NCBI GenBank assembly: GCA_004298675.1
Contig: SCRI01000061.1
Coordinates: 1-24,959 of the forward strand
DNA from: a bacterium
GTDB taxonomy: Bacteria > Vulcanimicrobiota > Vulcanimicrobiia > Vulcanimicrobiales > SCRA01
Direction: 5' to 3'
DNA: 24,959 bases
Made by a program: the position numbers and the translations under genes. The notes beneath the pieces were generated by a model, which did not search any database, had not been told where the DNA came from, and saw only the letters and a list, made by a program, of their open reading frames with translations. Below are positions 1 to 19,773 of the stretch, piece by piece. Every line of letters begins with the position of its first letter. Position 1 is the stretch's first letter.

Positions 1-599
<599 letters not shown>

Positions 600-625
<26 letters not shown>

Positions 626-1568
626 CGCCGCCGCCCCCCATGCTGAGAAACGCGCGCCGGAGCAGCGGACCCAGCTCCCAGAGCCCGCCGCGCAAGAACA
701 GGACGATGCAGCAGAAGAGCACACCCAGCAGCAGCGGCCAGCGCGCCCAGATCGTACTAAGGAAATTTGCCAACACCGTGTAGATGGCCGCACCCAGGAT
801 CGGCCCGTAGGGCGAGCCCACGCCGCCCAGCAGCCCCATCACCACGATGTTCGTTGACGTGTTGAAGTCGATTGCTTCCAGCGGCACGAACTGATAGAGC
901 AGCGCGTAGAGCGCCCCCGCCAGTCCCGACAGCGCGCCGGAGACGGCGAAGGCCGCCACTTTGAAGCGGCGCACGTCGTAGCCGATGGCCTTGGCGCGCT
1001 GCTCGTTTTCACGGATCGCGCGCAGGACGTGACCGAACGGCGAGTCGACGATCCGCAGCACCAGGTAGAACGCGAGCGCGAAGACGACCGCCACCACATA
1101 GTAGTAGGCGAGCTCGCCGTTCAGGTGGATGCCCAGGAAATCCGGGCGCACGAAGCCGCGCAGGCCGTTGTCGCCGCCGGTGATACCTTTCAGCTCGAAG
1201 GCGGCGTAGAATGCCATCTCGTTCAACGCAAAGGTGAGCATGACGGCATAGACGCCGGTCCCCATGATCGAGAGCGTTCCCACAACGAGCGCGGAGACGA
1301 CGCCGCCGGCGATGCCGGCTAACAGCAGCAGCGGCAATGCGGCGTGCCAGTGCAACGCGGCCAACGCCGCGGCGTAGGCGCCGGCGCCGTTGAACGTGGC
1401 TTGGCCGAAGGAGAGAAAGCCCATCTGCCCCAGCAACAGGCTAAAGCCAAGCGCCAGCATCCCCGCCGTGAGAATCTGCGCCTCCAGTGTAGGGTAGCGC
1501 ACGACCAGCGGCACCACGGCGACGATGGCGATGAGCGCGGCAAACGGCAGATAGGAGCGGCGGCTCAT
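600..1568 (-). CDS. livM: Branched-chain-type ABC transporter permease LivM
   Basis: A 322-residue inner-membrane permease, the LivM half of the channel of importer 1. It is strongly hydrophobic with several predicted membrane spans, and has the LivM-specific loop TGGDNGLRG at residues 130-138. The cytoplasmic coupling segment RAIRENEQRAKAIGYD, followed by VSGALSGLAGAL, lies at about 183-220 and is the part expected to dock on the ATPase. Its ATG overlaps the livH stop as ATGA (1565-1568), and its stop lies inside the start of livG, so livH-livM-livG is one operon. The length is normal for the family. Substrate specificity cannot be read from the permease; neighbouring catabolic genes leave amides, ureido acids or amino acids open. 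Confidence 0.95.
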
Positions 1569-2425
1569 CGCGTTCCGAAGAGCCCTTGCGGGCGCACCAG
1601 CAGCACCAGCACCATCGCCGCGAAGATCGCCACCTCCGATGCCGAGGGATAGTAGATCGTCATCACGGCCTGCGTGAGGCCGACGACGAGGCCGCCCACG
1701 ACCGCGCCCGCAAAACTACCGAGGCCGCCGATCACCACGACGACGAAACTGATCGCAGTCAGCTCCTCACCCATTGCCGGCTGACCGCCGCGGACCGGCA
1801 GGATCAAGGCGCCCGCCACCGCCGCCAGCGCTACGCCTAGGCCGAAGACCAGCGTGAAGAGGCGCTTGACGTTGAAGCCGATGCAGTCCACCATCGCCGG
1901 GTCTTCGATGCCGGCGCGGATGATGGCGCCGTACTTCGTGCGCTCCAAGCCGACCCAGACCGCGGCGATGAGGGCCGCCGCCACACCCACCAGGAAGAGC
2001 CGATAGAACGGAAACGTCACCAGACCCAACGAGAGGCCACCGTCGAGATGGGGCGGGACGTTGACGCTCGTGGGATCGGCGCCCCAGATCAAGACGATCG
2101 CTTCCTGGGCGATGAGCACCAGGCCGAGCGTGAAGAGGATCTGGTAGACGTGACCGAAGCGGGCGAGCCGGCGGATGAAGAGCGCGTCGATCACCAGACC
2201 CAAGACGCCGACGACGACGGGCACGAGCACGATCGCGGCCCAAAAGTTGTTGCTGCGCACGATCACGGAGTATGCGACGTAGGCGCCCAGCGCGTAGAAG
2301 GCGCCGTGCGCGAAGTTCGGGATGTCGAGCATGCCGAAGATCAGCGTCAAGCCGGCCGCCAGTAGCGCGTAGATCATGCCGAGCACAATGCCGTTGAGCA
2401 ACTGGATTGCAACGAGTGGCTCCAT
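1565..2425 (-). CDS. livH: Branched-chain-type ABC transporter permease LivH
   Basis: A 286-residue inner-membrane permease, LivH partner of the downstream LivM. The sequence begins MEPLVAIQLLNGIVLGMIYAL and has the family hallmarks LTLIFGMLDIPNFAHGAFYALGAY near the N-terminus and RAGIEDPAMVDCIGFN in the coupling loop, ending in VRPQGLFGTR. I chose the ATG at 2425 because homologues begin at this point and a GAGG lies just upstream; the longer reading from 2482 adds a charged, non-conserved tail. It is the first gene of the importer 1 operon and is transcribed away from the amidohydrolase at 2534. No substrate-binding protein gene adjoins it here, so that component is either beyond the left edge or elsewhere. 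Confidence 0.93.
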   Translation of the reverse strand: MEPLVAIQLLNGIVLGMIYALLAAGLTLIFGMLDIPNFAHGAFYALGAYVAYSVIVRSNNFWAAIVLVPVVVGVLGLVIDALFIRRLARFGHVYQILFTLGLVLIAQEAIVLIWGADPTSVNVPPHLDGGLSLGLVTFPFYRLFLVGVAAALIAAVWVGLERTKYGAIIRAGIEDPAMVDCIGFNVKRLFTLVFGLGVALAAVAGALILPVRGGQPAMGEELTAISFVVVVIGGLGSFAGAVVGGLVVGLTQAVMTIYYPSASEVAIFAAMVLVLLVRPQGLFGTR

Positions 2426-2488
2426 ACACCTCGTGCCCCTGCCGACGAGCAAGTGGGGGCGAGAGTTTCGACGGAGGAACACCCTTCC

Positions 2489-4575: not shown

Positions 4576-5802
4576 GTGCCGGGGTCCCTCGCCGTCTGGT
4601 TTGGAGAACTGTACGTCGGCCTGCTGGTGAATCTCCCCGGCGACTACAACGTCTTCAGCTTCGACGAAGAGTATCTCGCGGATAACGAGCGCCCGGTCCT
4701 AAGCCAAAGCCTCCTCGATCGAAGCGGACTCCCACGCCTTTCTATCCCCCAGACGCACCGGGTCGCGCCACCGTTCTTCTCCAACCTCCTCCCCGAAGAA
4801 GACGGCCTGCTTCGTACGTTGATTGCGCGGCAGCACGCGCTCAAGCGCACCCGCGACTACCCGTTCCTGCACGTGCTCGGCGAGGATCTTCCAGGCGCAG
4901 TGATCCTTCGCCCAATGGGCGCTCTCGTGCAGCAGCCTCTGCAGCAAGAGCTCCATGCTGGCCCAGAGCCAAATCCGCGGTTGCGATTCTCGTTAGCTGG
5001 CGCCCAACTAAAGTTCAGCGCGAGCATGCGCGACAGCCGCTTGACGATCCCGGTGAATGGCATCGGCGGCTCGTGGATCGTCAAACTGCCGGCCAACGCC
5101 TTCTCTCGACTGCCCGAGAACGAGCACGCGATGATGTCGTTCGCGGCGGCCATTGGCCTGAACGTACCGGAGGTGCGCCTTCTGCACTTGGACGATATCG
5201 GCGGTCTACCGCATGATCTCCCGGCACTACGTGCCGGCGAGCCGCGATTAGCCTACGCCATTCGGCGCTTCGACCGTCTCCCAGACGGACGGCGCATCCA
5301 TGTCGAGGACATGAACCAGGTGGCCGACCAATACCCAGACGACAAGTATGGGCATCGGACTACACACTGGATCGCCAATGTCGTACAGACGCTGTGCGAG
5401 CCCGAAGACGTCGACGAATTCGTCGCCCGTTTGGTCTTCGGCATCGGCATCGGCAATCACGACATGCACCTAAAGAACTGGGCCCTCACGTATCCCGACG
5501 GACGCCACGCCCAGCTGGCTCCACTCTACGACTACGTGTGCACGACGCTTTACATGCCCAAGAGCGACCTCGCCCTAACAATCGCCGGTGAGCGCGACCC
5601 CGCCGCGATTGACCTACGCGTTATAGAGCGCTTTGCCGCCCTGGCGGAGATATCCGTGGCGCGTGCCGTGGTGGTCGCACGGAAAACCGTCGCAAGGATG
5701 CGCGACGCCTGGCCGGGCGTGCGCGCCGCCCTACCGGACGCGGAACTCGTCAAGGCCGTCGAGCTGCGCCTCCGCACGGTCCCGCTGATGCGCGGACATT
5801 AA
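4576..5802 (+). CDS. hipA: HipA-like serine/threonine kinase toxin
   Basis: A 408-residue protein of the HipA kinase family, near the usual family length. The N-terminal lobe begins LAVWFGELYVGLL. S139 in FSLAGAQLK aligns with the regulatory autophosphorylated serine of E. coli HipA (SVAGAQEK), K170 in WIVKLPAN is the expected ATP-contacting lysine, D296 in GNHDMHLKN is the catalytic aspartate, and D319 in LYDYV is the metal-binding aspartate. All key residues are present, so it looks active. E. coli HipA phosphorylates glutamyl-tRNA synthetase and causes growth arrest; the target here is unknown. The GTG start directly abuts the hipB stop, and I see no separate promoter. It is part of an accessory island. 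Confidence 0.93.
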   Translation: MPGSLAVWFGELYVGLLVNLPGDYNVFSFDEEYLADNERPVLSQSLLDRSGLPRLSIPQTHRVAPPFFSNLLPEEDGLLRTLIARQHALKRTRDYPFLHVLGEDLPGAVILRPMGALVQQPLQQELHAGPEPNPRLRFSLAGAQLKFSASMRDSRLTIPVNGIGGSWIVKLPANAFSRLPENEHAMMSFAAAIGLNVPEVRLLHLDDIGGLPHDLPALRAGEPRLAYAIRRFDRLPDGRRIHVEDMNQVADQYPDDKYGHRTTHWIANVVQTLCEPEDVDEFVARLVFGIGIGNHDMHLKNWALTYPDGRHAQLAPLYDYVCTTLYMPKSDLALTIAGERDPAAIDLRVIERFAALAEISVARAVVVARKTVARMRDAWPGVRAALPDAELVKAVELRLRTVPLMRGH

Positions 5803-7998: not shown

Positions 7999-9360
7999 GT
8001 GCGATTTATCGGCCGGCGCATAGAGCTGGAAGCGCTTGAGCGGATCGCCGGGCGACAGGGCGGCCAGATGGTACTCGTCTACGGCCGCAGGCGGGTCGGA
8101 AAGTCATACCTGTTGGAGCGGTTCAGCCGCGAGCGCCACGCCCTCTACTACCAAGCTACCCAGCAGGCCGAGGCAGTCGAGCTCGCGGCGTTCTCCGAGC
8201 TCGCACGCTCGCTGACCGGGCTCCCCGCAGGGGTGGCCTTTCCCGGGTGGGAGGCAGCGCTCGATGCCGTTGCCGCGGCAAGCAAAGGGCGGCGCCTTGT
8301 CGTCATCCTCGACGAGTTTCCCTATTTGTGCGACTCCACTACCGGCCTGCCGTCCATCGTTCAGCGCTGGTGGGACCATCGGGGCCGAACCTCCGGTGTG
8401 ATGCTGATCCTGTGCGGATCGGCTCAGACCTTTATGGAGGAGTTGGAGGCTCACGCAGCCCCACTGTTCGGCCGCTTCACCGGTAAGCTCCCAATCCGCC
8501 CGCTCTCATACCGGGAAGCGGCCGAGTTCACCCCAACCTTGAGCACGACGGAAAAGGCGCTCACATTCGGAATCCTCGGCGGAACGCCGTTCAACTTAGA
8601 CCAATGGGACACTGCCCTCGGCGTCCGCGACAACCTGCTAGGGCTATTCGGTGATCCGATGAGCTCTCTCATCGACTCAGCCGAACACATCCTCACGTCT
8701 GATCTTCCCGATCCGCGCGTCGCCTACCGTGTGCTGCAAGCGATCGCGCTCGGCCATAGCCGCTGGACGGATATCCGCGATTACGCGAAGGTGCACGACC
8801 GAGTACTTCCGCGACTGATCGAGATCGGCCTGATCGAGCGGCGAACGCCGGCCACCGAGGATCCGGCGAAATCCCGGCGCAGCGTCTACCGGATCCCCGA
8901 CCCTTACCTACGATTCTGGTTCCGATTCATCGCGCGCAATCGCGGCGCGATCGAACGCGGTCTCGGCCAGAGCGTGATCGATGAACAGGTGATGCCTTTT
9001 CTCGATCAGCATATGGGTCAGACATTCGAGGACATGGCCCGGGAGTTCGTTCTCGATCTCGTTCGTCGCAGAGCGTTGCGCGCGGACGACGTCGGATTCT
9101 GGCAGTCGCCGGACGGTCAACATGAGATCGACATCGTGGGCGTCGTTCGGCGCAAGCCAACGTTCATCGGCACCGTGAAGTGGCGGCAGGCGCCGCTCGA
9201 TGCGGGGGTACTTCTCAATCTTGAAACTCATGCGCGGGCGCTCGGCGTCGGCACGGAATTGCCATGGCTGCTCATCGGCCGCGGCGGGGTCGACCGCGCG
9301 ATCCTGACGCGTTCAACCCTGCACGGCTACTCGGTAGCGGATCTGTACGAAACGGAGTGA
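7999..9360 (+). CDS. ATPase_2/DUF234 family ATPase with altered nuclease motif
   Basis: A 453-residue P-loop ATPase of the archaeal-type family that ends in a DUF234 domain. Walker A is GRRRVGKS at 29-36, Walker B VVILDEFPYL at 101-110, and LILCGSAQTF near 137-145 is the sensor region. A winged helix follows at about 240-300, and then the DUF234 region from about 305 (YLRFWFRFIARNRG). DUF234 proteins normally carry a PD-(D/E)xK-like site ending in GECKW; here EID (376-378) is kept but the second motif reads GTVKW (391-395), so the catalytic acid is replaced by Thr. It starts with GTG at 7999, without a clear ribosome site. Function of the family is unsettled. It converges on the liv fusion with an 11-base gap. 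Confidence 0.85.
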   Translation: MRFIGRRIELEALERIAGRQGGQMVLVYGRRRVGKSYLLERFSRERHALYYQATQQAEAVELAAFSELARSLTGLPAGVAFPGWEAALDAVAAASKGRRLVVILDEFPYLCDSTTGLPSIVQRWWDHRGRTSGVMLILCGSAQTFMEELEAHAAPLFGRFTGKLPIRPLSYREAAEFTPTLSTTEKALTFGILGGTPFNLDQWDTALGVRDNLLGLFGDPMSSLIDSAEHILTSDLPDPRVAYRVLQAIALGHSRWTDIRDYAKVHDRVLPRLIEIGLIERRTPATEDPAKSRRSVYRIPDPYLRFWFRFIARNRGAIERGLGQSVIDEQVMPFLDQHMGQTFEDMAREFVLDLVRRRALRADDVGFWQSPDGQHEIDIVGVVRRKPTFIGTVKWRQAPLDAGVLLNLETHARALGVGTELPWLLIGRGGVDRAILTRSTLHGYSVADLYETE

Positions 9361-9371
9361 GTCACGAGCTG

Positions 9372-11864
9372 CTACACGCCCAAGAGGCGAACCTGAAGCT
9401 CGCGATCCTGCTGCAACGCGCCGGCCGCACTCTCGCAGGCGATGCTCCCGTTTACCATGATGTAGGCGCGGTCGGCGATCTCTAAGGCGAGATCGACCCG
9501 TTGCTCCACGATCAAGATGCTGGCGCGCGCGCGTAGCCGTTCCACGGCGGCTTTGACTTCGGCGACGACGGCCGGGGCCAGGCCCTCAAAGGGTTCGTCC
9601 AAGAGGATGAGCCGCGTGGGCGCCATCAACGCTCGCGCGATGGCCAGCATTTGCTGCTCGCCGCCGCTGAGGTTTTGCCCTAAGGCCCCCATCCGCTCGG
9701 CTAAGCGTGGAAAGACGTCGAAGGCCTCCTCGAGCGCCCACCCGCCGGGGCGTTGCGCCAGCTTCAGATTGTCGACGACGGTCAAGTTCGGAAAGACACG
9801 CCGCCCCTGCGGCACCACGGAGATACCCAGGCGATTGATGCGATCGGGCGACCAGTGCGTGACGTCGGAGTCCTCGAAGCGCAGCGTGCCGGCACTCGCC
9901 TTGACGATCCCCATGATGGTGTACACGGTGGTCGTTTTACCGACGCCGTTGCGCCCCAACAGCGCGACCGCCTCGCCCTCCTTCACGACCAGGTTCACCT
10001 GGTTGAGAACGCGGCTGCCACCGTATCCCGCATCGATCCCATCCAGCGCCAACAGCACTTTACCGGCGCTTTCCAAGCTACGGACCAGTGCTGCCGGTTG
10101 CGCCGGACTCTTCTCGTACTCGTGGCCCAGATAGGCGCTGACGACGTCCGGGTGGTTGACGATCTCCGCCGGCGCACCCTCGGCAATCACCCGCCCTTGA
10201 TGCAGGACCGTGATGCGATCGGAGAGCGAGATGACGCGGTCGATGTCGTGCTCGATCAAGAGGATCGTATGGCTGCCGGCGAGATGGCGGATGAGGGCGC
10301 TAATGCGCTCTCGATCCGCATCGGTGAGGCCGGCCAACGGCTCGTCGAGCAGCAAGAGCTCCGGCTGACAGGCTAGTGCCATCGCGATATCCAGCAGGCG
10401 CTTCTCGCCGTGGGGCAGATTGCCAACCACCTCGGCCGCCTTAGCGTCGAGCCCCACGGTCCGCAGCAGCGTCCACGTGCGCTCGACCACGTCGCGCAGG
10501 GTGTAGGCATCGCGCAACAGCGACGCGCGATGCGGCGAGCGGCTCTGCACGGCAATGCGCAGCGTCTCGAAGACGGTGAGATTCTTACCGACGCTCACCA
10601 CCTGGAACGAGCGCGACATACCTTTCATCGCCCGCTCGTAAGCCGGCTGCGCGCTCACGTCCTCGCCCTTGAAGATGACACTGCCGCCGTCTTGATCGAG
10701 CAGCCCCGACAGCATGTTGAAGAGCGTCGTCTTGCCGGCACCGTTCGGGCCGATGATGCTGTGAATCTTGCCCGGCTGCACCTTCAGGTCGATGCGATCG
10801 GCGACGATCAGGTTACCAAAGCGCTTCTCCAGGCCATGGACCGAGAGGATCGGCCCAGCACCCGCCCACGCACGGTGAAACGTCGTGACGTCGCCGGATC
10901 CGGCCGGCGGTGGCGGCACACTCTCCGTCGTCAGACGCCAGCGCACCTCGGCGCGGCGCAGCCGGGCCCAGATTCCGGAGAGCCCTTCGGGCGAGAAGAG
11001 CACCACCAGCACGAGGATCGCACCGAAGATCAGGTACCAGTGCTCCGTATAGGCGCTGAGCTGATCGCTCAGCCAGATGTAGATGATCGCGCCCCAGAGC
11101 GGCCCTAGGAAATAGTTCATCCCGCCCAACAGCGTCATCATCACGGGGTCACCGGCGTGCTGCCAGTTCAGGTTGTCGGCGTAGACGCCGCGAATCAGAT
11201 ACGTCAGCAGCCCGCCCGCCAAGCCAATGAAGGTAGCCGAGATGATGAATGCGCCCATTTTATACCAGAACGGGTTATAGCCCAGACACTGCACGCGTTG
11301 TTCATTATCGCGTATGGCTTGGAGGACGCGTCCGAAAGGCGAGTGGACGATACGGAAGAGCGCGAACGTCGCCAGATAGACGATGATCGCGCTGAAGACG
11401 TAGAAGGCTCCGTCGCTTGCGACGATGCCGCGGCTCACGCCCTGCAGGCCGTTCTCGCCTCCCGTCAGCGGCGTCCAATGGAAGGCGATCTCGTAGAAGA
11501 GCTGCGTGAAGGCTAGCGTCAGCAGCGCGAAGTAGAGACCGCGCCGGCGCAAGATGAGGAAGCCGAGCATCACCCCCAGCAGTGCCGCGGCGACGGTAGC
11601 CAGCAGCAACCCCAAGGCCAGGCCCTGCGTCAGGTGGAGCGCCGTCAGCGCCACGACGTAGCCGGAAACGCCGAAGAACACCGAGGATCCAAACGATGTC
11701 ATGCCGGTAAAGCCCAACAGCACATTGAACGCGATGCCGTAGAGCACGTAGATGACGATCTGCGTCGCCAGGCTCAAGGGCGAGCCCAGCACGTGGAAGA
11801 GCAGCGGCAGCAGCACGAACGCGGCGCCGAGAATGACCATCGGGTGTCTGTAACCGCGCATCAC
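9372..11864 (-). CDS. livM-livG-livF: LivM-LivG-LivF triple fusion: permease plus two ABC ATPases
   Basis: One uninterrupted 830-residue frame carries three importer subunits that are usually separate. Residues 1-310 are a LivM permease (TGGENGLQG at 134-142, RAIRDNEQR coupling loop); 311-337 are a Pro-rich linker; 338-580 are LivG (Walker A GPNGAGKT 372-379, signature LPHGE 483-487, Walker B LLLLDEP 503-509, IEHD); 581-602 are a linker; 603-830 are LivF (Walker A GRNGVGKT 637-644, signature LSGGEQ 732-737, Walker B LILLDEP 752-758, VEQR). Every nucleotide-binding motif is intact. The start is GTG 11864 or ATG 11861, both overlapping the livH stop. It would form the importer with LivH (11861-12736) and the Tat-type binding protein upstream. 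The fusion fixes LivM and both ATPases at 1:1:1. Confidence 0.95.
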   Translation of the reverse strand: MMRGYRHPMVILGAAFVLLPLLFHVLGSPLSLATQIVIYVLYGIAFNVLLGFTGMTSFGSSVFFGVSGYVVALTALHLTQGLALGLLLATVAAALLGVMLGFLILRRRGLYFALLTLAFTQLFYEIAFHWTPLTGGENGLQGVSRGIVASDGAFYVFSAIIVYLATFALFRIVHSPFGRVLQAIRDNEQRVQCLGYNPFWYKMGAFIISATFIGLAGGLLTYLIRGVYADNLNWQHAGDPVMMTLLGGMNYFLGPLWGAIIYIWLSDQLSAYTEHWYLIFGAILVLVVLFSPEGLSGIWARLRRAEVRWRLTTESVPPPPAGSGDVTTFHRAWAGAGPILSVHGLEKRFGNLIVADRIDLKVQPGKIHSIIGPNGAGKTTLFNMLSGLLDQDGGSVIFKGEDVSAQPAYERAMKGMSRSFQVVSVGKNLTVFETLRIAVQSRSPHRASLLRDAYTLRDVVERTWTLLRTVGLDAKAAEVVGNLPHGEKRLLDIAMALACQPELLLLDEPLAGLTDADRERISALIRHLAGSHTILLIEHDIDRVISLSDRITVLHQGRVIAEGAPAEIVNHPDVVSAYLGHEYEKSPAQPAALVRSLESAGKVLLALDGIDAGYGGSRVLNQVNLVVKEGEAVALLGRNGVGKTTTVYTIMGIVKASAGTLRFEDSDVTHWSPDRINRLGISVVPQGRRVFPNLTVVDNLKLAQRPGGWALEEAFDVFPRLAERMGALGQNLSGGEQQMLAIARALMAPTRLILLDEPFEGLAPAVVAEVKAAVERLRARASILIVEQRVDLALEIADRAYIMVNGSIACESAAGALQQDRELQVRLLGV

Positions 11865-12736
11865 TCGAAGCGCTCCCAGCGCTCACCGAAGAGGCCGCGT
11901 GGCCGTGCCAGGAGCACCAGCGCCATCAAGAGATACATCACCGCGTTGGCCGCGGCCGGCATGAACTGAATCGTCAATGCCACCGCGATTCCCACCACGA
12001 GACCGCCAACCACCGCTCCGCGCAGGCTGCTGAGGCCCCCGATCGTCACCACGACGAAGGCCGGCATGATCGCGCTCTCGGCCATCGAGGGCACGACACT
12101 CCATAACGGCGCCGCCAGCACACCGGCCACCCCCGCCAGCAGCGTGCCCATACCGAAGACCAGCGTGAACACGCGCGGAAGGTTGATGCCGAGCATACTG
12201 ACCATCTCCGCGTCACGGCTCCCCGCGCGAATGACGCGGCCATACGGCGTGCGCTCCAGAAAGAGCCAAATTGCGAAGGTCAGCAACGCGGTGATGGCGA
12301 GGACGACGAGCCGGTACTTGGTGACCAGGATCGGCCCGAAGACCAGGAAACCCGAGAGATAGGCCGGAGCGTCGAAGGGGTGGCCCGCGGCTCCCCATAC
12401 CGTTCGGATCAGCTCTTCGATGAAGAGCGCCAAGCCGAACGTGAGCAAGAGCCCCAAGAGCGGCTCTTTATCGTAGAGCGGGCGCAGCATCGTGGCCTCG
12501 ATCAGCATACCGACCACGGCAACCAGCACCGGCGCCACCACGATGATGCCGGCATCGCCGATGTGGGGGCGCAGCGTCAACGCGAAGTAGGCACCCAGTG
12601 CGAAGAGCGCGCCGTGCGCGAAGTTGACCACGCCGAGCATACCGAAGATGATCGAGAGCCCAACCGCGATCAACACGTAGAGGAATCCGAGCACCAGGCC
12701 GTTGATGATCTGTGAAGAGATCACACCGAAATCCAT
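11861..12736 (-). CDS. livH: Branched-chain-type ABC transporter permease LivH (importer 2)
   Basis: A 291-residue inner-membrane permease. It has SIIFGMLGVVNFAHGALFAL near residue 30, the coupling loop RAGSRDAEMVSMLGINLPR and the C-terminal ARPRGLFGERWERFE. The ATG at 12736 follows GGAG at a good distance. Its stop overlaps the start of the triple fusion, so the two membrane components are translationally coupled. It lies 87 bases downstream of the binding-protein gene, and that gap holds a strong hairpin. It is clearly diverged from the LivH at 1565-2425, so the two importers are not a recent tandem duplication. Confidence 0.95.
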   Translation of the reverse strand: MDFGVISSQIINGLVLGFLYVLIAVGLSIIFGMLGVVNFAHGALFALGAYFALTLRPHIGDAGIIVVAPVLVAVVGMLIEATMLRPLYDKEPLLGLLLTFGLALFIEELIRTVWGAAGHPFDAPAYLSGFLVFGPILVTKYRLVVLAITALLTFAIWLFLERTPYGRVIRAGSRDAEMVSMLGINLPRVFTLVFGMGTLLAGVAGVLAAPLWSVVPSMAESAIMPAFVVVTIGGLSSLRGAVVGGLVVGIAVALTIQFMPAAANAVMYLLMALVLLARPRGLFGERWERFE

Positions 12737-12823: not shown

Positions 12824-14086
12824 TTAGAGCGAGGTGAGCTTACATTCGCTGCTAGCGCGCTCGCCATAGAACGCGTCCAGCGATCCGCCGTGCCCCGGCT
12901 CTTCCGCCATGACGTTGAAGTAGTCGAACTTGTCCGTGATCTTCGGTTTGACTTGTGCCACCAGGGTGGGCTGGATCAGTTGATGATCCCACGAGCGGAA
13001 GTAGATCGGCTGGTCCTTGTAGCCGTCGAACTTGTGGTCTTCCAAGAATTCGACGAGCCGCTTGGAGTCCGTCGACTTCGTCTCACGGATCGCCGTGAGG
13101 ATGGCGATGCAGCCGAAATAATCCTGGAAGCCTTCCACCTCCGGCGGGGTCCCGAACTGCCGTTGGTACTCCTCAGCGAACTTCTTGCCTTTGCCGCCGC
13201 GATACGGCCCGGTGTAGTTCCAGAGCTTGGGATAGATGCCGGTTGCCGCTTCGGGGCCCGCGGCCCACAGATCGCTGTCGTTGACGATCGGCGAGGAGAT
13301 GGGGATCTTCCCCGTCAGCCCGACCTGCTGGTACTGCTTCAGGAAGTTCGTGATGTCGCTGCCGCCCAAGCCCAGGAAGACGACATCCGGCTTGGCCGCA
13401 CGTACTTTGAGGATGAAGGAACTGTAGTCCGTGGTGCCTAGCGGCGCCTGGTCGTAACCGACGGCCTTCCCGCCGTTGCTAACCAGGACGTCCTTCATCT
13501 GGTTGAACGCATCGATACCCCAGGCGTACGACGCCGACACGAAGTACCAGTTCTTGCCGTGTTGCGACAGTGAGGGGTAGACGGTGCGCACGGTCACGCG
13601 GTTCGGAAGATCGACGCGGAAGGTGTAGCGATTGCACTTCGCGCCGGTGATCTCGGTGGCGTTTGGTCCGGTCGCCATCAAGAGCGTCTTGGTGCGCTCC
13701 GCGATGGGCATGATCGCCAAAACGTCGCCGCTGCTGATCCCGCCCTGAACCGCGACCACCTTACGAACTTGGATCAGCTCGTTCATGTTCTGCACGGTGG
13801 TCTGCGGATTGGCCTCGTCGAGCCACACCAGCTCGATGGGGCGGCCTAGCACCTCTCCGCCAAACTCCTTGACGGCAACCTGCGCGCCGTTATGACCGTT
13901 CTCTCCCTGCACCGCGTAGGGACCGGACTTGGGCAGCAACACGCCGATGCGAATCGGTTCGGCTGCGAGAGCCCGACTGATAAAGGGCCCGACACTCGCC
14001 GCGAGACCGGTCCCGATGCCGGCCTGAAGGACGGTGCGGCGAGAGATAGCACGCCCCGGGGAGTTCTCCAGTGATGAGCCAGCCAT
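12824..14086 (-). CDS. Tat-exported substrate-binding protein of Liv importer 2
   Basis: A 420-residue periplasmic-type binding protein (Peripla_BP_6/LivK family). The N-terminus has a twin-arginine signal, SRRTVLQ at 15-21, then a hydrophobic stretch and ALAA before the mature start EPIRIGVLLPKSGPYA. The fold markers GENGHNGAQVAVKEFGG, VVAVQGGISSGDVLAIMPIA and FEEYQRQFG-like FAEEYQRQFG follow in order. I chose ATG 14086 because AAAGGAG lies 4 bases before it; an in-frame start at 14185 adds an Arg-rich tail ahead of the signal. It is the first gene of the importer 2 operon, divergent from the LacI-type regulator. Tat export of a solute-binding protein is less common than Sec. The ligand is unknown; coupling to the downstream catabolic operon suggests a small hydroxy acid or amino acid analogue. 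Confidence 0.92.
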   Translation of the reverse strand: MAGSSLENSPGRAISRRTVLQAGIGTGLAASVGPFISRALAAEPIRIGVLLPKSGPYAVQGENGHNGAQVAVKEFGGEVLGRPIELVWLDEANPQTTVQNMNELIQVRKVVAVQGGISSGDVLAIMPIAERTKTLLMATGPNATEITGAKCNRYTFRVDLPNRVTVRTVYPSLSQHGKNWYFVSASYAWGIDAFNQMKDVLVSNGGKAVGYDQAPLGTTDYSSFILKVRAAKPDVVFLGLGGSDITNFLKQYQQVGLTGKIPISSPIVNDSDLWAAGPEAATGIYPKLWNYTGPYRGGKGKKFAEEYQRQFGTPPEVEGFQDYFGCIAILTAIRETKSTDSKRLVEFLEDHKFDGYKDQPIYFRSWDHQLIQPTLVAQVKPKITDKFDYFNVMAEEPGHGGSLDAFYGERASSECKLTSL

Positions 14087-14142
14087 TGCACTCCTTTCGA
14101 ATAGCCTCGCGCGTCCGCGGCATTCATTCAAGGCACTGCGTT

Positions 14143-14157
14143 GGGTAAACGTTTTCC
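14143..14157. promoter_or_regulatory. Candidate LacI-type operator 1
   Basis: GGTAAAC followed by GTTTTCC (14144-14157) is a 14-base palindrome centred on CG with 6 of 7 pairs matching. A CG-centred even palindrome is typical of LacI-family operators. It lies between the divergent binding-protein gene and the LacI-family gene, within the predicted 5' leader of the liv operon, where bound repressor could block elongation. Confidence 0.5.
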
Positions 14158-14159
14158 TT

Positions 14160-14176
14160 CGAACGCCAAACGTTCG
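14160..14176. promoter_or_regulatory. Candidate operator 2, inverted repeat next to operator 1
   Basis: CGAACG (14160-14165) and CGTTCG (14171-14176) form a perfect 6-base inverted repeat with a 5-base spacer; the right half also overlaps the palindrome AACGTT (14169-14174). It directly adjoins operator 1, so the pair may bind regulator cooperatively. The repeat is short, and either the inverted repeat or the inner palindrome could be the real unit. Confidence 0.35.
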
Positions 14177-14220
14177 TTTTTCCACCCCCTTTGCAGAGAC
14201 TGGCCTCTCCTTTGCGGAAG

Positions 14221-14287: not shown

Positions 14288-15307
14288 ATGAGCGCGCCCC
14301 GGCGTAAGGGCGCGCCGCGCGCCACCATTGACGACGTCGCGGCGGCCGCCGGCGTCTCGATCGCCACGGTTTCGCGCGTCCTCAACGGCATCGAGCACAA
14401 GGCTTCATCTGAAACGCGCCACCACGTGCTCGCCGCCGCCGCGCGCCTGGGTTATCGCCCCGTCCACGCGGGCCGCGCGCTACGCACCATGCGTTCCGCG
14501 CTGGTCGCGCTCTTCGTCCCGGATACGTCGAACCTGTTCTACGCCACCATCGCCGACGCCATCGCCTCGCACCTAAAAGACAGTGGCAGCTCGATGATCC
14601 TGTGCAACACGCGCGACGAGGCCGCGATTCAAGACCGCTTGTTGGAAGAGATGGAGTCCCACCTGGTCAATGGGATCGTGCTGCTGGGCGCCTTGGATTC
14701 CCCCGGTCTACGGCAAGCGATCAACAACGGGCTGCCGATTATCTTCCTCAACCGCAAGCCGCCGGCCGGCATCGCTGCGCCGTACATCGGGGTCGACAAT
14801 CGTCTGGCCGGCCGCCAGGTGGCCGAGCACTTCCTAGAGCGAACCTGGAGCCCGGTTGGCGCGATCCACGGGCCACTGGCCTCATCCGCGAGCCGCGGCC
14901 GCTATGAGGGCTTTCGCGCGCGGCTCACCCGCGCCGGCATCAGGCTCGAGCCGCGCTTGGTCCGCGGCGCGGAGCTGACGATTCAGTCGGGCTACCAAGC
15001 GGCCACGGCCATGCTCGCGCAGCGCCCCTACCCGCGCGCCGTCTTCTGCGGCAACGACCTCATCGCATACGGCCTGCACGAGCGCTGTGGGGAGTTGGGG
15101 ATCAGCGTGCCCGAGCAGATGGCGATCTTCGGCTTCGACGACAACCCTCTGAACGCGTGGCTGGCACCCTGGCTCGACACGATCCGCGTGCCCTACGATC
15201 AATACGGAGCGACGGTGGCGGGGGCGCTAGCGCGCCTCGCCGAGACGCCGCGCCGGCGCGTTCCGCGCGAAACGATCCTGCCCCACCGCGTCGTGATCCG
15301 GCGCTGA
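14288..15307 (+). CDS. LacI-family transcriptional regulator
   Basis: A 339-residue regulator of full family length. The N-terminal helix-turn-helix TIDDVAAAAGVSIATVSRVL is at 13-32, followed by the hinge region LGYRPVHAGRALRTMRS. The rest is a sugar-binding-like effector domain with IGVDNRLAGRQVAEHF, RYEGFRARL, AVFCGNDLIAYGL and FGFDDNP. It is divergent from the binding-protein gene and just upstream of the SDR-BKACE operon, and CG-centred palindromes lie on both sides of it. It is the obvious candidate regulator of uptake and breakdown of one substrate. The effector is unknown; despite the family name it need not be a sugar. The ATG at 14288 lacks a strong ribosome site. Confidence 0.93.
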   Translation: MSAPRRKGAPRATIDDVAAAAGVSIATVSRVLNGIEHKASSETRHHVLAAAARLGYRPVHAGRALRTMRSALVALFVPDTSNLFYATIADAIASHLKDSGSSMILCNTRDEAAIQDRLLEEMESHLVNGIVLLGALDSPGLRQAINNGLPIIFLNRKPPAGIAAPYIGVDNRLAGRQVAEHFLERTWSPVGAIHGPLASSASRGRYEGFRARLTRAGIRLEPRLVRGAELTIQSGYQAATAMLAQRPYPRAVFCGNDLIAYGLHERCGELGISVPEQMAIFGFDDNPLNAWLAPWLDTIRVPYDQYGATVAGALARLAETPRRRVPRETILPHRVVIRR

Positions 15308-15409: not shown

Positions 15410-16165
15410 TTGCGAGTCATGGTCACCGCAGGTGCGAGCGGCATCGGCCGAGCGATCGCCGACGCCTTCGCCACGCAAGGTGCGCGCGTGCACGTGTGCG
15501 ACATCGACGAGAACGCACTGGCCGCGTGCAGCAGGGAGCACCCGGAGTACACGCTGACGCATTGCGATGCCTCCGACGAGCGGCAGGTGGGCGTACTCTT
15601 CGATCAAGTGCAACGCGCCATGGGCGGCCTCGACGTGCTGGTGAACAACGTGGGGATTGCCGGGCCCACGGCGCGCGTGGAAGAGATTGCGCCGGCGGAG
15701 TGGCGGCGCACGATCGACACGAATCTCAACAGCTACTTCTACTGCACGCGTCTGGCCGTGCCGATGCTGCGCCAGGCCGAAGGCGACGGCGCGATCGTCA
15801 ACATCTCCTCAGTGGCGGGGCGCCTGGGCTACGCCTACCGCACGCCGTACGCCGCTACCAAGTGGGCGATCATCGGCTTCACGCAGAGCCTGGCGAAGGA
15901 GCTGGGCCCCGACGGCATACGTGTCAACGCGGTGCTGCCCGGCATCGTGGAAGGGCCGCGTATCGACCGCGTCATCACGGCGCGCGCGCGCGAGGTTGGC
16001 GTCGACTACGAGGAGATGAAGCACCGCTATCTCGAGCATGTCTCCCTGCGGCGGATGGTGAGCGCGCAAGACGTCGCCAACACGGTAGTCTTCCTCTGTT
16101 CGCCGGAGGGGCGGAACATCTCAGGTCAATCACTCAGCGTCTGCGCAAACGTGGAGACGCTGTAA
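15410..16165 (+). CDS. Short-chain dehydrogenase/reductase, first gene of BKACE operon
   Basis: A 251-residue classical SDR. The cofactor loop is TAGASGIG at 6-13, the NNVG motif is at 79-82 (a common NNAG variant), catalytic S134 is in NISSVAG, and Y147 and K151 are in TPYAATKWA. NISGQSLSVCANVETL closes the chain. The TTG at 15410 is preferred because AGGAGG ends 7 bases before it; the ATG at 15419 would leave too long a spacing and cut into the cofactor strand. The gene after it starts 12 bases past the stop with its own AAGGAG. The likely role is oxidation of a hydroxyl group on the imported substrate or an intermediate of the BKACE route; the substrate is not readable from sequence. Confidence 0.9.
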   Translation: MRVMVTAGASGIGRAIADAFATQGARVHVCDIDENALAACSREHPEYTLTHCDASDERQVGVLFDQVQRAMGGLDVLVNNVGIAGPTARVEEIAPAEWRRTIDTNLNSYFYCTRLAVPMLRQAEGDGAIVNISSVAGRLGYAYRTPYAATKWAIIGFTQSLAKELGPDGIRVNAVLPGIVEGPRIDRVITARAREVGVDYEEMKHRYLEHVSLRRMVSAQDVANTVVFLCSPEGRNISGQSLSVCANVETL

Positions 16166-16177
16166 GGAGCATCAACC

Positions 16178-17113
16178 ATGGCCAAGGGAACGCGGAAAGT
16201 CATCATCACGTGCGCCGTTACGGGTGCGATCCATACCCCCACCATGTCGCCCTATCTGCCGGTCACGCCGGACGAGATCGCCGAGGCGGCCATCGGCGCG
16301 GCGCAGGCGGGCGCGGCGATTCTGCACCTGCATGCGCGGGACCCCAAAGACGGCCATCCCACCCAGGACCCTGAGATCTTCAAACAGTTCCTGCCCAAGA
16401 TCATGGCCGGGACCGGCGCCGTGATCAATCTCACCACGGGCGGCAGCCCACACATGACCGTCGACGAGCGGCTGCGCCCGGCCGCCGAGCTGAAGCCTGA
16501 GGTGGCCTCGCTCAACATGGGCTCGATGAACTTCGGCCTCTATCCCATGCTCAAGCGTCACCAGAGCTTCAAGTATGAGTGGGAGCGCGAGCACCTGGAA
16601 AAGAGCCGCAATCTCGTCTTCAAGAACACCTACGCCGACATCGAGCGCATTCTGGGCCTCTGCAGCGAGAACGGCACCCGCTTCGAGTTCGAGTGCTACG
16701 ACATCGGGCACTTGTACAACTTGGCGCACTTCTTGGAGCGCGGCGTCGTCAAGCCGCCGCTGTTCGTGCAGACGGTACTGGGCATCTTGGGCGGCATCGG
16801 CCCGCATCCTGAGGATCTGCTGCACATGCGGCGCACCGCCGACCGTCTCTTCGGCCAAGACTACGTCTGGTCGGTGTTGGGTACGGGGCGCAATCAGATC
16901 CCGCTCGCCACGATCGGCGCGGCCATGGGCAGCAACGTACGCGTGGGCCTGGAGGACTCGCTGTGGAACGGGCCCGGTACGCTGGCCGAGTCGAACGCGG
17001 TGCAGGTGCGGCGCATCCGTCAAGTGATCGAGGCGCTCTCGCTCGAGGTGGCCACGCCGGATGAGGCGCGCACGATGCTGCAGCTCAAAGGACGCGAACG
17101 GGTAACCGCCTGA
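16178..17113 (+). CDS. Beta-keto acid cleavage enzyme (BKACE, DUF849 family)
   Basis: A 311-residue zinc-dependent TIM-barrel enzyme of the family of 3-keto-5-aminohexanoate cleavage enzyme. The family converts a beta-keto acid plus acetyl-CoA to acetoacetate plus a new acyl-CoA. Zinc ligands are visible: H50 and H52 in ILHLHARDP, and E259 in VRVGLEDSLW. Other family marks are the ITCAVTGAIHTP start, NLTTGG, SLNMGSMNFG and FECYDIGHL. The ribosome site AAGGAG (16164-16169) overlaps the previous stop. The stop shares its A with the next ATG (TGATG), so the BKACE and the dehydrogenase are coupled. The order dehydrogenase plus BKACE recalls carnitine catabolism, where 3-dehydrocarnitine is cleaved; other beta-keto acids are equally possible. 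Confidence 0.95.
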   Translation: MAKGTRKVIITCAVTGAIHTPTMSPYLPVTPDEIAEAAIGAAQAGAAILHLHARDPKDGHPTQDPEIFKQFLPKIMAGTGAVINLTTGGSPHMTVDERLRPAAELKPEVASLNMGSMNFGLYPMLKRHQSFKYEWEREHLEKSRNLVFKNTYADIERILGLCSENGTRFEFECYDIGHLYNLAHFLERGVVKPPLFVQTVLGILGGIGPHPEDLLHMRRTADRLFGQDYVWSVLGTGRNQIPLATIGAAMGSNVRVGLEDSLWNGPGTLAESNAVQVRRIRQVIEALSLEVATPDEARTMLQLKGRERVTA

Positions 17114-18054
17114 TGGCGGAGCGCACTTCCGTCCTCGGCACCGGATTGGTCGGATGCGGGTGGGCGATCGTCTTCGCCCGCGCCGGCTTCGAGGTGACGC
17201 TCTACGACGAGAGCCCGGAGGCACTAGACCGTGCCCAGGCCCAGATAGCCAGCTCGCTTGCAGATCTGGCGTCGGCCGGATTGATCGATGATGCCGCCAC
17301 GGTTCGCGCACGTATTAGGCCGGCGCCAACTTTGGCCGATGCCGTGCGCAACGCGCGCTACATCCAGGAGAGCGTCTTCGAAGACGCGGAGGTGAAGCAC
17401 CGCCTCTTCGCCGCGCTCGACGAGCTGGTAGGCGCGCAGACGCTCATGGGCAGTTCCACCTCGGCGATTCCTCCTTCTCAACTCACGCGCGACCTAGCGA
17501 CGCGCGAGCGCTGGTTGGTGGCCCATCCAGTGAACCCACCGTATCTCGTGCCGCTGGTGGAGTTGGTTCCGGCACCGTGGACCGCGCCGGCAACTGTTGC
17601 GGGCGTGCGAGCCCTGATGCAGCAGATGGGGCAGGTCCCCGTCGTCGTCAAACGCGAGCTGGAGGGGTTCGTCCTCAACCGCTTGCAGGGGGCACTGCTC
17701 AACGAAGCGTGGCGGCTCGTGGAAGAGGACTACATTAGCGTCGAGGATCTCGACAAGACCGTTTCCGATGGCCTTGGGCTGCGCTGGTCCTTCATGGGGC
17801 CATTTGAGACGATCGACCTCAACGCACCGCGCGGCGTGCGCGAGTACGCCGAGCGCTTCGGCCCCTTCTACCACAGCCTGGCTAACAGCCGCACGACACC
17901 GCCGGCACCGTGGGGGGAGGCACTGGTGAGCCATGTGGAGCGGCTGCGCCGCGAACAACTGCCCGCGGAGGAGCTGGACGCGCGGCGCGCTTGGCGCGAC
18001 CGCCGATTGATGGCGCTGGTGCGCCACAAGCGGGAGATGGAGCGAGCCACGTGA
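17113..18054 (+). CDS. Lambda-crystallin-type 3-hydroxyacid dehydrogenase (L-gulonate/carnitine dehydrogenase family)
   Basis: A 313-residue NAD-dependent dehydrogenase of the 3-hydroxyacyl-CoA dehydrogenase superfamily. The Rossmann loop GTGLVGCG is at 9-16, SSTSAIPPSQL carries the catalytic serine region, and VAHPVNPPYLVPLVELVP carries the catalytic histidine in the lambda-crystallin form rather than the acyl-CoA form. GFVLNRLQGALLNEAW carries the asparagine, and MGPFETIDLNAP follows. The family oxidises free beta-hydroxy acids such as L-gulonate and L-carnitine. It overlaps BKACE by one base at the start and the MaoC gene by 4 at the end (GTGA). The logical order is hydroxy acid to keto acid to cleavage. 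Substrate is not determined. Confidence 0.92.
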   Translation: MAERTSVLGTGLVGCGWAIVFARAGFEVTLYDESPEALDRAQAQIASSLADLASAGLIDDAATVRARIRPAPTLADAVRNARYIQESVFEDAEVKHRLFAALDELVGAQTLMGSSTSAIPPSQLTRDLATRERWLVAHPVNPPYLVPLVELVPAPWTAPATVAGVRALMQQMGQVPVVVKRELEGFVLNRLQGALLNEAWRLVEEDYISVEDLDKTVSDGLGLRWSFMGPFETIDLNAPRGVREYAERFGPFYHSLANSRTTPPAPWGEALVSHVERLRREQLPAEELDARRAWRDRRLMALVRHKREMERAT

Positions 18055-18473
18055 CGAACATGCGCGACCGTCTCGCGATCGGCACGACGATCACGTTCAG
18101 CAAGACCGTGGGCGAGAGCGACGTCTACCAATTCGCCGGCATCAGCGGCGATTTCAGCCCAAACCACGTCAATCACGAATACATGGCCCGGACGCGCTAC
18201 GGTCAGCGCATCGCCCATGGCGCCCTGATGATCGCCTACATGTCAACCTGCTCGACGAAGCTGATCGAGATGAACGGCAACAAACCGATGGTCTCCTACG
18301 GCTACGACCGCATCCGTTTCACGAAGCCCGTCTTCTTCGGCGACACGGTCACCGTCGAGTATAGGATCGAGGAGCGCGACGATACAACGGGTGTGGTACG
18401 CTCACGGATCGAGGTTACCAACCAGCGCGGCGAACTGGTGGCGGTTGCGACGCATATCCTCAAAGCGGTGTAG
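18051..18473 (+). CDS. MaoC-like hotdog hydratase
   Basis: A 140-residue hotdog-fold protein with the catalytic pattern of (R)-specific enoyl-CoA hydratases: FAGISGDFSPNHVNHEYM, with the conserved aspartate and histidine, then RIAHGALMIAYMS. VFFGDTVTVEYRIEE and LVAVATHILKAV finish the fold. The GTG at 18051 overlaps the dehydrogenase stop and has GGAG upstream; ATG 18060 is an alternative. It closes the four-gene operon. In Pseudomonas carnitine operons a hotdog thioesterase sits in the matching position; here the residues fit a hydratase better. It may hydrate an unsaturated acyl-CoA made from the substrate or release the acyl-CoA product; this is not decidable from sequence. Confidence 0.88.
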   Translation: MTNMRDRLAIGTTITFSKTVGESDVYQFAGISGDFSPNHVNHEYMARTRYGQRIAHGALMIAYMSTCSTKLIEMNGNKPMVSYGYDRIRFTKPVFFGDTVTVEYRIEERDDTTGVVRSRIEVTNQRGELVAVATHILKAV

Positions 18474-18503
18474 GCGGAAGGCCCCAACAGGCTTGGCGCG
18501 TTC

Positions 18504-18521
18504 GATGAGGGGAATCTCATC
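18504..18521. promoter_or_regulatory. Inverted repeat upstream of AAA_14 gene
   Basis: GATGAG (18504-18509) and CTCATC (18516-18521) are perfect complements with a 6-base spacer, 23 bases before the ATPase ATG. A second, imperfect pairing joins GGGGAAT (18510-18516) with ATTCCC (18535-18540). The site may be an operator or an RNA hairpin near the ribosome site; the arms are short. Confidence 0.3.
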
Positions 18522-18543
18522 ACGGCATGGTGAAATTCCCGCC

Positions 18544-19773
18544 ATGTACCCCAGGTTGCTCATGTCTAGCGTGGTCGCGGCTCTCGATGACACACCGGTA
18601 ACCCTGCTCATCGGCCCACGCCAAGCTGGAAAGAGCACACTTGCGCGGGAGCAACTCGCCTGTACCCGCGCACTGACCTACCTGACCCTGGATGATGCCG
18701 CAACGTTGGCTTCCGCTCACGCCGATGCCACCGGGTTCGTGAACAGCCTTCGCGGGCCGGCGGTCATCGACGAAGTTCAGCGGGCAACCGGCCTGTTTCC
18801 CGCGATCAAGGCAAGCGTCGATCGAGATCGAAGTCCCGGCCGCTTCCTCCTCACTGGTTCAGCCAACGTCTTGATGTTACCGCATCTCTCCGAGTCCTTA
18901 GCGGGACGAATGGAGGTACTCACCCTCTGGCCGCTTGCGCAATCGGAGATCGAACGAACCTCGCCGCAATTCCTGGACGATCTCTTCGCGCCGCAGGCTC
19001 CGTCTTGGCATGGCGGCGACCGCCGTGACGGCATTATCGAACGCATTCTACGCGGCGGTTACCCCGAAGTCGTCAGCCGCACCGATACGAGGCGCAGAGA
19101 GCGATGGTTCGGCTCCTACCTCACGACGATACTGCAACGCGAAGTGCGCGACATTGCAAACGTCACGGATCTGGCGGTGCTCCCGCGTCTCCTCCAATTC
19201 GCCGCTGCGCGCGCGGCATCACTACTCAACATGAACGAGCTCGCTCGCGATAGCGGCATCGCCCACGCCACGCTGAAGCGTTACCTGGCGCTACTCGAGG
19301 CAACCTATCTCATTCAGCGCCTTCCGGCATGGGCACGCAACACCACAACACGCCTGGTGAAGTCGCCAAAGATCCTGATCGTGGATTCTGGCCTCATGGC
19401 GTACCTTCTTCACACGACCCAGGCAGCGACGCTCGGAGACGACCCGCGGGTAGGGTCACTCGTCGAAAACTTCGTCGGCACTGAGCTGCTGAAACTCGCC
19501 GCCTCCGCGCGCGATCGTTATGCTGTTTCGTACTTTCGAACGCAGCATGGTAACGAGGTTGACTTCGTCATCGAAGACGCACGCGGTCACGTCGTCGGCA
19601 TCGAAGTCAAGGCGGCCGCCACCGTAACCGCACGCGACTTCAGAGGGCTGCGGGCGCTAGCGGGTACGGCCGGCAAAGACTTTATGCGTGGGGTCGTGCT
19701 CTACTCAGGCACCGCGACACTGCCCTTCGGCGATGGATTACTTGCCGCACCGATCTCGGCGCTCTGGGCGTGA
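18544..19773 (+). CDS. AAA_14/DUF4143 family ATPase
   Basis: A 409-residue P-loop ATPase with Walker A GPRQAGKST at 24-32, Walker B AVIDEVQRA at 73-81 and sensor FLLTGSANVL at 101-110. A DUF4143 region follows (about 190-350), and the end carries a PD-(D/E)xK-like pattern with EVD at 338-340 and IEVKA at 353-357. Unlike the DUF234 protein at 7999, this one keeps the acid-x-lysine pair. The ATG at 18544 starts at the conserved MYPRLL; the longer frame from 18391 overlaps MaoC and is Arg-rich. The ribosome site is weak. These proteins are widespread and often move with accessory genes; their biochemical role is unsettled. The gene follows the catabolic operon with a 70-base gap and is not obviously part of it. 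Confidence 0.85.
   Translation: MYPRLLMSSVVAALDDTPVTLLIGPRQAGKSTLAREQLACTRALTYLTLDDAATLASAHADATGFVNSLRGPAVIDEVQRATGLFPAIKASVDRDRSPGRFLLTGSANVLMLPHLSESLAGRMEVLTLWPLAQSEIERTSPQFLDDLFAPQAPSWHGGDRRDGIIERILRGGYPEVVSRTDTRRRERWFGSYLTTILQREVRDIANVTDLAVLPRLLQFAAARAASLLNMNELARDSGIAHATLKRYLALLEATYLIQRLPAWARNTTTRLVKSPKILIVDSGLMAYLLHTTQAATLGDDPRVGSLVENFVGTELLKLAASARDRYAVSYFRTQHGNEVDFVIEDARGHVVGIEVKAAATVTARDFRGLRALAGTAGKDFMRGVVLYSGTATLPFGDGLLAAPISALWA

Follow-up and report, generated by a model that had tools for sequence, protein, structure and literature searches.

In the canonical LivFGHM and UrtABCDE importers (HAAT, TC 3.A.1.4), LivM, LivG and LivF are encoded by separate genes. The stretch of DNA analysed here (24,959 nucleotides, hereafter the window) contains a single open frame in which the three are joined. 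This raises the questions of whether the frame encodes a genuine protein, whether its architecture is unusual, and what the corresponding importer may carry. The sequence-only reading had described one 830-residue frame with LivM, LivG and LivF parts and all motifs intact, and both statements were borne out. It named no strand; the frame lies on the minus strand. The gene and its parts are as follows.

9372..11864, minus strand: LivM-LivG-LivF triple-fusion gene, 830 aa, GTG start, without internal stop
10962..11864, minus strand: LivM-type permease domain, residues 1-301 (Pfam BPD_transp_2 at 30-288, E 1.3e-35)
10851..10961, minus strand: linker 1, residues 302-338, about 37 residues (gap between domain matches, and alignment)
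10116..10850, minus strand: LivG/UrtD-type ATPase domain, residues 339-583 (TIGR03411, 336 bits; PF12399)
10056..10115, minus strand: linker 2, residues 584-603, about 20 residues (domain matches and alignment)
9375..10055, minus strand: LivF/UrtE-type ATPase domain, residues 604-830 (TIGR03410, 321 bits)

Pfam identified one BPD_transp_2 domain, two ABC_tran domains and the LivG C-terminal domain BCA_ABC_TP_C (558-583) in the fusion, and NCBIfam models of the UrtD/LivG type matched residues 339-581, those of the UrtE/LivF type residues 605-820. Walker A (GPNGAGKTT and GRNGVGKTT) and Walker B (LLLLDEP and LILLDEP) are intact in the two ATPase domains, and the catalytic Glu of Walker B is present in both. 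The first domain has the signature LPHGE, a switch His at residue 539 and the BCA_ABC_TP_C tail. The second has the signature LSGGE, with Gln 788 (9501-9503) occupying the position of the switch His. The two linkers had been estimated at about 20-27 residues, which holds for linker 2; linker 1, spanning from the last permease segment to the first ATPase strand, is longer. An AlphaFold2 model built from a two-sequence alignment of the fusion had a mean pLDDT of 37 and was unusable.

The host genome is a draft of 87 contigs, and a frameshift or assembly artefact might have joined three ordinary genes. However, a full-length homologue of equal length and 59% identity is found in another assembly, a Salinisphaera-labelled MAG (L009). 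The same frame and order recur in over 30 other fusions drawn from independent records, several of them on complete plasmids. Such an artefact is hardly conceivable, and an assembly error or chance frame is excluded because the whole open frame is conserved among independent homologues. If the chain were cut, or re-initiated at starts within the linkers, an ordinary four-subunit LivHMGF importer would result. The linkers do contain GTG/TTG codons with weak Shine-Dalgarno-like sequence (residues 316 and 603), and a related set is known in which the genes are split and abut (L118, genome G721). Nevertheless, the linkers are in frame in 36 of 36 fusions, and the codons in the window linkers that resemble starts are not kept as such across the subclade to which the window fusion belongs. 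Cutting or re-initiation is therefore considered very unlikely.

The fusion gene overlaps its upstream gene, livH, by four bases, and belongs to a transporter operon with a divergent regulator.

11861..12736, minus strand: LivH-type permease, 291 aa, partner of the fusion (BPD_transp_2, 4e-36; UrtB/LivH models)
12824..14185, minus strand: substrate-binding protein, Peripla_BP_6 (PF13458, 3.4e-75)
14288..15307, plus strand: LacI-family regulator (PF00356/PF13377), divergent from the transporter operon

All parts of a HAAT-type importer are present, namely two BPD_transp_2 permeases, two LivG/LivF-type ATPases and a Peripla_BP_6 binding protein, and the four modules and the operon logic are those of the canonical systems. 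The binding protein carries a twin-arginine-type signal (SRRTVLQ, from the translation), and its real start is probably downstream of the listed GTG. The proposal that one chain supplies LivM and both ATPases, leaving only LivH and a binding protein to be added, is supported by the finding that both are encoded directly upstream. The operon is conserved: the order of binding protein, LivH and fusion is constant in every examined homologous locus whose contig reaches upstream.

Another importer is encoded at one end of the window.

2..793, minus strand: importer 1 LivG, separate gene
600..1568, minus strand: importer 1 LivM, separate gene
1565..2482, minus strand: importer 1 LivH

The LivF of importer 1 is expected past the contig end. 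About 20 other HAAT sets are readable in the host genome and all are split, in agreement with the earlier suggestion, drawn from importer 1, that the host also uses the normal form. Elsewhere in the window are a HipA-family kinase-like gene (4576-5802, plus strand; HipA_C, Couple_hipA) and a PabB-PabC type fusion (23120-24862, plus strand; Chorismate_bind and Aminotran_4), for which, of three congeners, G001 alone has a 71% homologue.

The triple architecture had been taken as unusual and undescribed, and this is not borne out. A tblastn search against plasmids returned full-length fusions from Roseomonas, Paracoccus, Methylobacterium, Burkholderia, Rhizobium, Paraburkholderia, Neorhizobium, Skermanella, Ponticoccus, Salipiger and Microvirga; the triple fusion thus recurs across many soil and marine bacteria. 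Where annotated by NCBI, such plasmid fusions are mostly named 'branched-chain amino acid ABC transporter ATP-binding protein/permease'. Among 385 Alphaproteobacteria genomes (a species-level sample of the class of a Bradyrhizobium), at least 9 gave strong matches, as did 12 of 399 Burkholderiales genomes (a species-level sample of the order of a Burkholderiaceae MAG). One of the latter twelve (G721/L118) is split, leaving about 11 of 399 with the fusion. Within the phylum of the window, 1 of 149 genomes has the fusion, the window genome itself; the second match in the phylum, from G071, joins only LivM and LivG and leaves LivF on its own. Samples of the classes of the Acrocarpospora (L080) and Hahella (L016) genomes, with two to three candidates scored per genome, yielded nothing at the cut-off, which is a weak negative result.

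The Proteobacterial fusions, for example WP_099781204.1 from Roseomonas, WP_205295438.1 from Paracoccus methylovorus and WP_027513123.1 from Rhizobium sullae, have the order LivM-LivG-LivF as in the window. Those from Alpha- and Betaproteobacteria are of similar length (about 835-860 aa), have LivH directly upstream and the binding protein upstream of LivH, and fall in the same clade. They differ in sequence (39-59% identity across the aligned fusions) and in that the window protein keeps Gln at the switch position of the second ATPase domain (NBD2). An Azospirillum 'protein fusion consisting of two ATP-binding domains and permease' appears in a table published in 2014 (PMC4295147). The protein, from Azospirillum brasilense AZOBR3 (gi 392379334), is described with the same domain content, and the table assigns it no function. 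A search of the literature for work devoted to the triple fusion returned this table entry only. The architecture is therefore recurrent rather than common, occurring in a few percent of the genomes sampled, and annotated but not studied; the outcome that the sequence-only reading had named as refuting it, an architecture both common and already described, has thus largely come about. The window fusion is a divergent new member of an existing annotated clade spread over Alpha- and Betaproteobacteria, and the architecture itself was already known.

Trees were first built from 35 fused and 20 split systems, and a later concatenated tree included 65 taxa. In the first set the fusions grouped together in the LivM (support 0.88), LivG (0.90) and concatenated (0.99) trees, and the LivF tree alone left this grouping unresolved (0.27). 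The 65-taxon concatenated tree separated the triple fusions with support of 0.999. The sample was chosen by similarity to the query and separate fusions may exist elsewhere; within it, the triple fusions form a single clade, which from these trees looks to be of single origin. The clade holds two subclades, and the window fusion and that of L009 make up the first branch of subclade A. The modules fuse repeatedly, since double fusions with the same modules and one left separate also exist. In G071 (L091:2200-4782), from the same order as the window genome, fused LivM-LivG precedes a LivF gene of its own, and a 506-aa LivG-LivF double fusion is encoded on a Natrinema halophilum plasmid (L177:1321-2841). 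In the Burkholderiales genome G721 (L118/L166), LivM, LivG and LivF are three nearly abutting genes, which group with the split systems.

The H-loop of the LivF-type domain shows a second pattern. Outside the triple-fusion clade, the switch residue was His in none of 35 domains (32 Gln, 2 Lys, 1 Ser), and Gln is likewise found in most sampled canonical LivF proteins. In contrast, 34 of 36 triple fusions have His at this position; the two exceptions, the window protein (Q788) and L009, both have Gln. The Walker A Lys, the Walker B Glu and the switch His of the first ATPase domain (NBD1) do not vary among the first 35 fusions examined. The LivF switch residue thus varies within the clade; it is a common feature and does not decide membership. 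On the tree, its pattern requires a gain and a reversal, or two gains. A literature search on this pattern returned nothing. The fusion may have been accompanied by a change in ATPase symmetry.

On the other side of the LacI-family regulator are three genes for catabolic enzymes.

15410..16165, plus strand: SDR-family dehydrogenase, TTG start as listed (PF13561, 1.3e-59)
16178..17113, plus strand: beta-keto acid cleavage enzyme (BKACE), 3,5-dioxohexanoate-type (PF05853, 6e-110)
17113..18054, plus strand: 3-hydroxyacyl-CoA dehydrogenase family (HCDH) / lambda-crystallin-like dehydrogenase (PF02737, 4.8e-51)

The BKACE passes NF053538 (3,5-dioxohexanoate:acetyl-CoA acetone transferase) with 551 bits against a cut-off of 430, and shares about 62% identity with BKACE15 (PDB 8RIO). 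The window genome has no second close BKACE; one other locus reaches 41-42%. The HCDH passes NF004783 (444 bits against a cut-off of 347) and matches 3ado (E 1.5e-71). The best solved relative of the SDR is 5unl, deposited only as a 3-ketoacyl-ACP reductase. Two genes for AAA ATPases flank the transporter/catabolic module (7999-9360 and 18391-19773, both plus strand); they are of the ATPase_2/DUF234 and AAA_14/DUF4143 types.

Linkage of these enzymes to the fusion is recurrent. BKACE, HCDH and mostly SDR adjoin the fusion in the window and at ten other loci (L090, L092, L094, L095, L149, L154, L155, L157, L162 and L164), and SDR and HCDH also adjoin it in L009. The Paracoccus denitrificans locus (L092, 9141-10088) has BKACE15 itself beside the fusion (100% identity to 8RIO over 304 aa). 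Substrates tested with BKACE15 include 3,5-dioxohexanoate, and its physiological role was stated as unknown (PMC11961710). The catabolic neighbours of the fusion cassette differ by locus, being SDR/HCDH/BKACE, AroE/SDR/FAD/Gfo or a ThDP enzyme. Most members of subclade A, which includes the window fusion, adjoin the AroE/SDR/FAD/Gfo or ThDP enzyme genes, and for this reason the substrate may vary among members; catabolic neighbours have been swapped.

Homologues of the importer are named branched-chain amino acid transporters by automatic annotation, and LivG, LivF and LivH models do give matches. Both points favour an ordinary branched-chain amino acid importer, fused by chance, to which the BKACE, HCDH and SDR neighbours would be unrelated. 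However, the best models are of the urea type: the fusion passes the curated cut-offs of the UrtD and UrtE equivalogs TIGR03411 and TIGR03410 (336 against 304 and 321 against 286 bits), and the LivG, LivF and LivH equivalog cut-offs are all missed, including those of the E. coli-type LivG and LivF models NF008449 and NF008626 (306 against 362 and 264 against 441 bits). The UrtB and UrtA partner models are also below cut-off (189 against 250 and 101 against 493 bits), and the importer is therefore not classed as a urea transporter. The presence of about 20 other HAAT sets in the genome and the co-location of SDR, HCDH and BKACE in about ten independent loci also argue against an ordinary importer, which is considered unlikely. 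Branched-chain amino acids are probably not what the importer carries.

Instead, a small 3-hydroxy or 3-oxo acid is suggested as the substrate because the SDR, BKACE and HCDH genes adjoin the cassette, as in several homologous loci; this is an association, not proof. In Clostridium, phloroglucinol degradation is finished by 3-hydroxy-5-oxohexanoate dehydrogenase and triacetate lyase (PMC10470551). The C. scatologenes TfD/TAL enzymes, like BKACE15 of P. denitrificans, are homologous to the BKACE and HCDH-like pair of the window. The Clostridium system also has a major-facilitator transporter and a cyclohydrolase (PMC10470551), neither of which was identified in the window. With no dihydrophloroglucinol cyclohydrolase-type gene identified among the window genes scanned, and with 5unl as the best solved relative of the SDR, the BKACE operon was rejected for now as a complete phloroglucinol pathway. 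The deoxyribonate pathway combines an SDR and a BKACE and uses MFS transporters (PMC6365646); by analogy it possibly shares its logic with the window genes, the type of transporter differing.

The explanation that we favour, and consider fairly probable, is a fused HAAT importer of single ancestral origin which supplies a BKACE pathway with a small keto or hydroxy acid. LivM, LivG and LivF would have fused once in an ancestor, and the fusion would then have been inherited and spread as a cassette with the binding protein and LivH. The fusion product would be the larger subunit of a LivHMGF-like ABC importer, and one such chain with one LivH would provide two permease halves and two ATPases, a complete transporter supplied by the Tat-type exported binding protein. 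The single-chain architecture would fix a 1:1:1 ratio of the fused parts, and it is plausible that the fusion locks stoichiometry in this way; as the sequence-only reading proposed, it may also set the order of assembly. The imported acid would be a small 3-hydroxy- or 3-oxo-carboxylic acid of the 3,5-dioxohexanoate / 5-hydroxy-3-oxohexanoate class. The SDR and the HCDH-like enzyme, encoded by the divergent LacI-associated genes, would oxidise it, and BKACE would then split it with acetyl-CoA.

A broader reading, to which we give little credence, would combine altered HAAT energetics with a dedicated BKACE-linked carrier. A non-fused LivF with a non-canonical switch residue would form part of an asymmetric ATPase pair; the fused clade would have gained the switch His and with it a two-site motor, the window protein and L009 being intermediate or reverted. 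In BKACE-linked loci, the fused importer would be the dedicated carrier of the beta-keto or beta-hydroxy acid degraded nearby.

As a compact, two-polypeptide HAAT importer, the fused system of the favoured explanation may be easier to purify than the four-subunit form. The clade also allows naturally occurring LivF ATPase domains that have the switch His to be compared with others that lack it. It represents an uncharacterised, recurrent group of transporters tied to BKACE15, a structurally solved enzyme of unknown role, which would obtain its missing physiological role if the broader reading were true.
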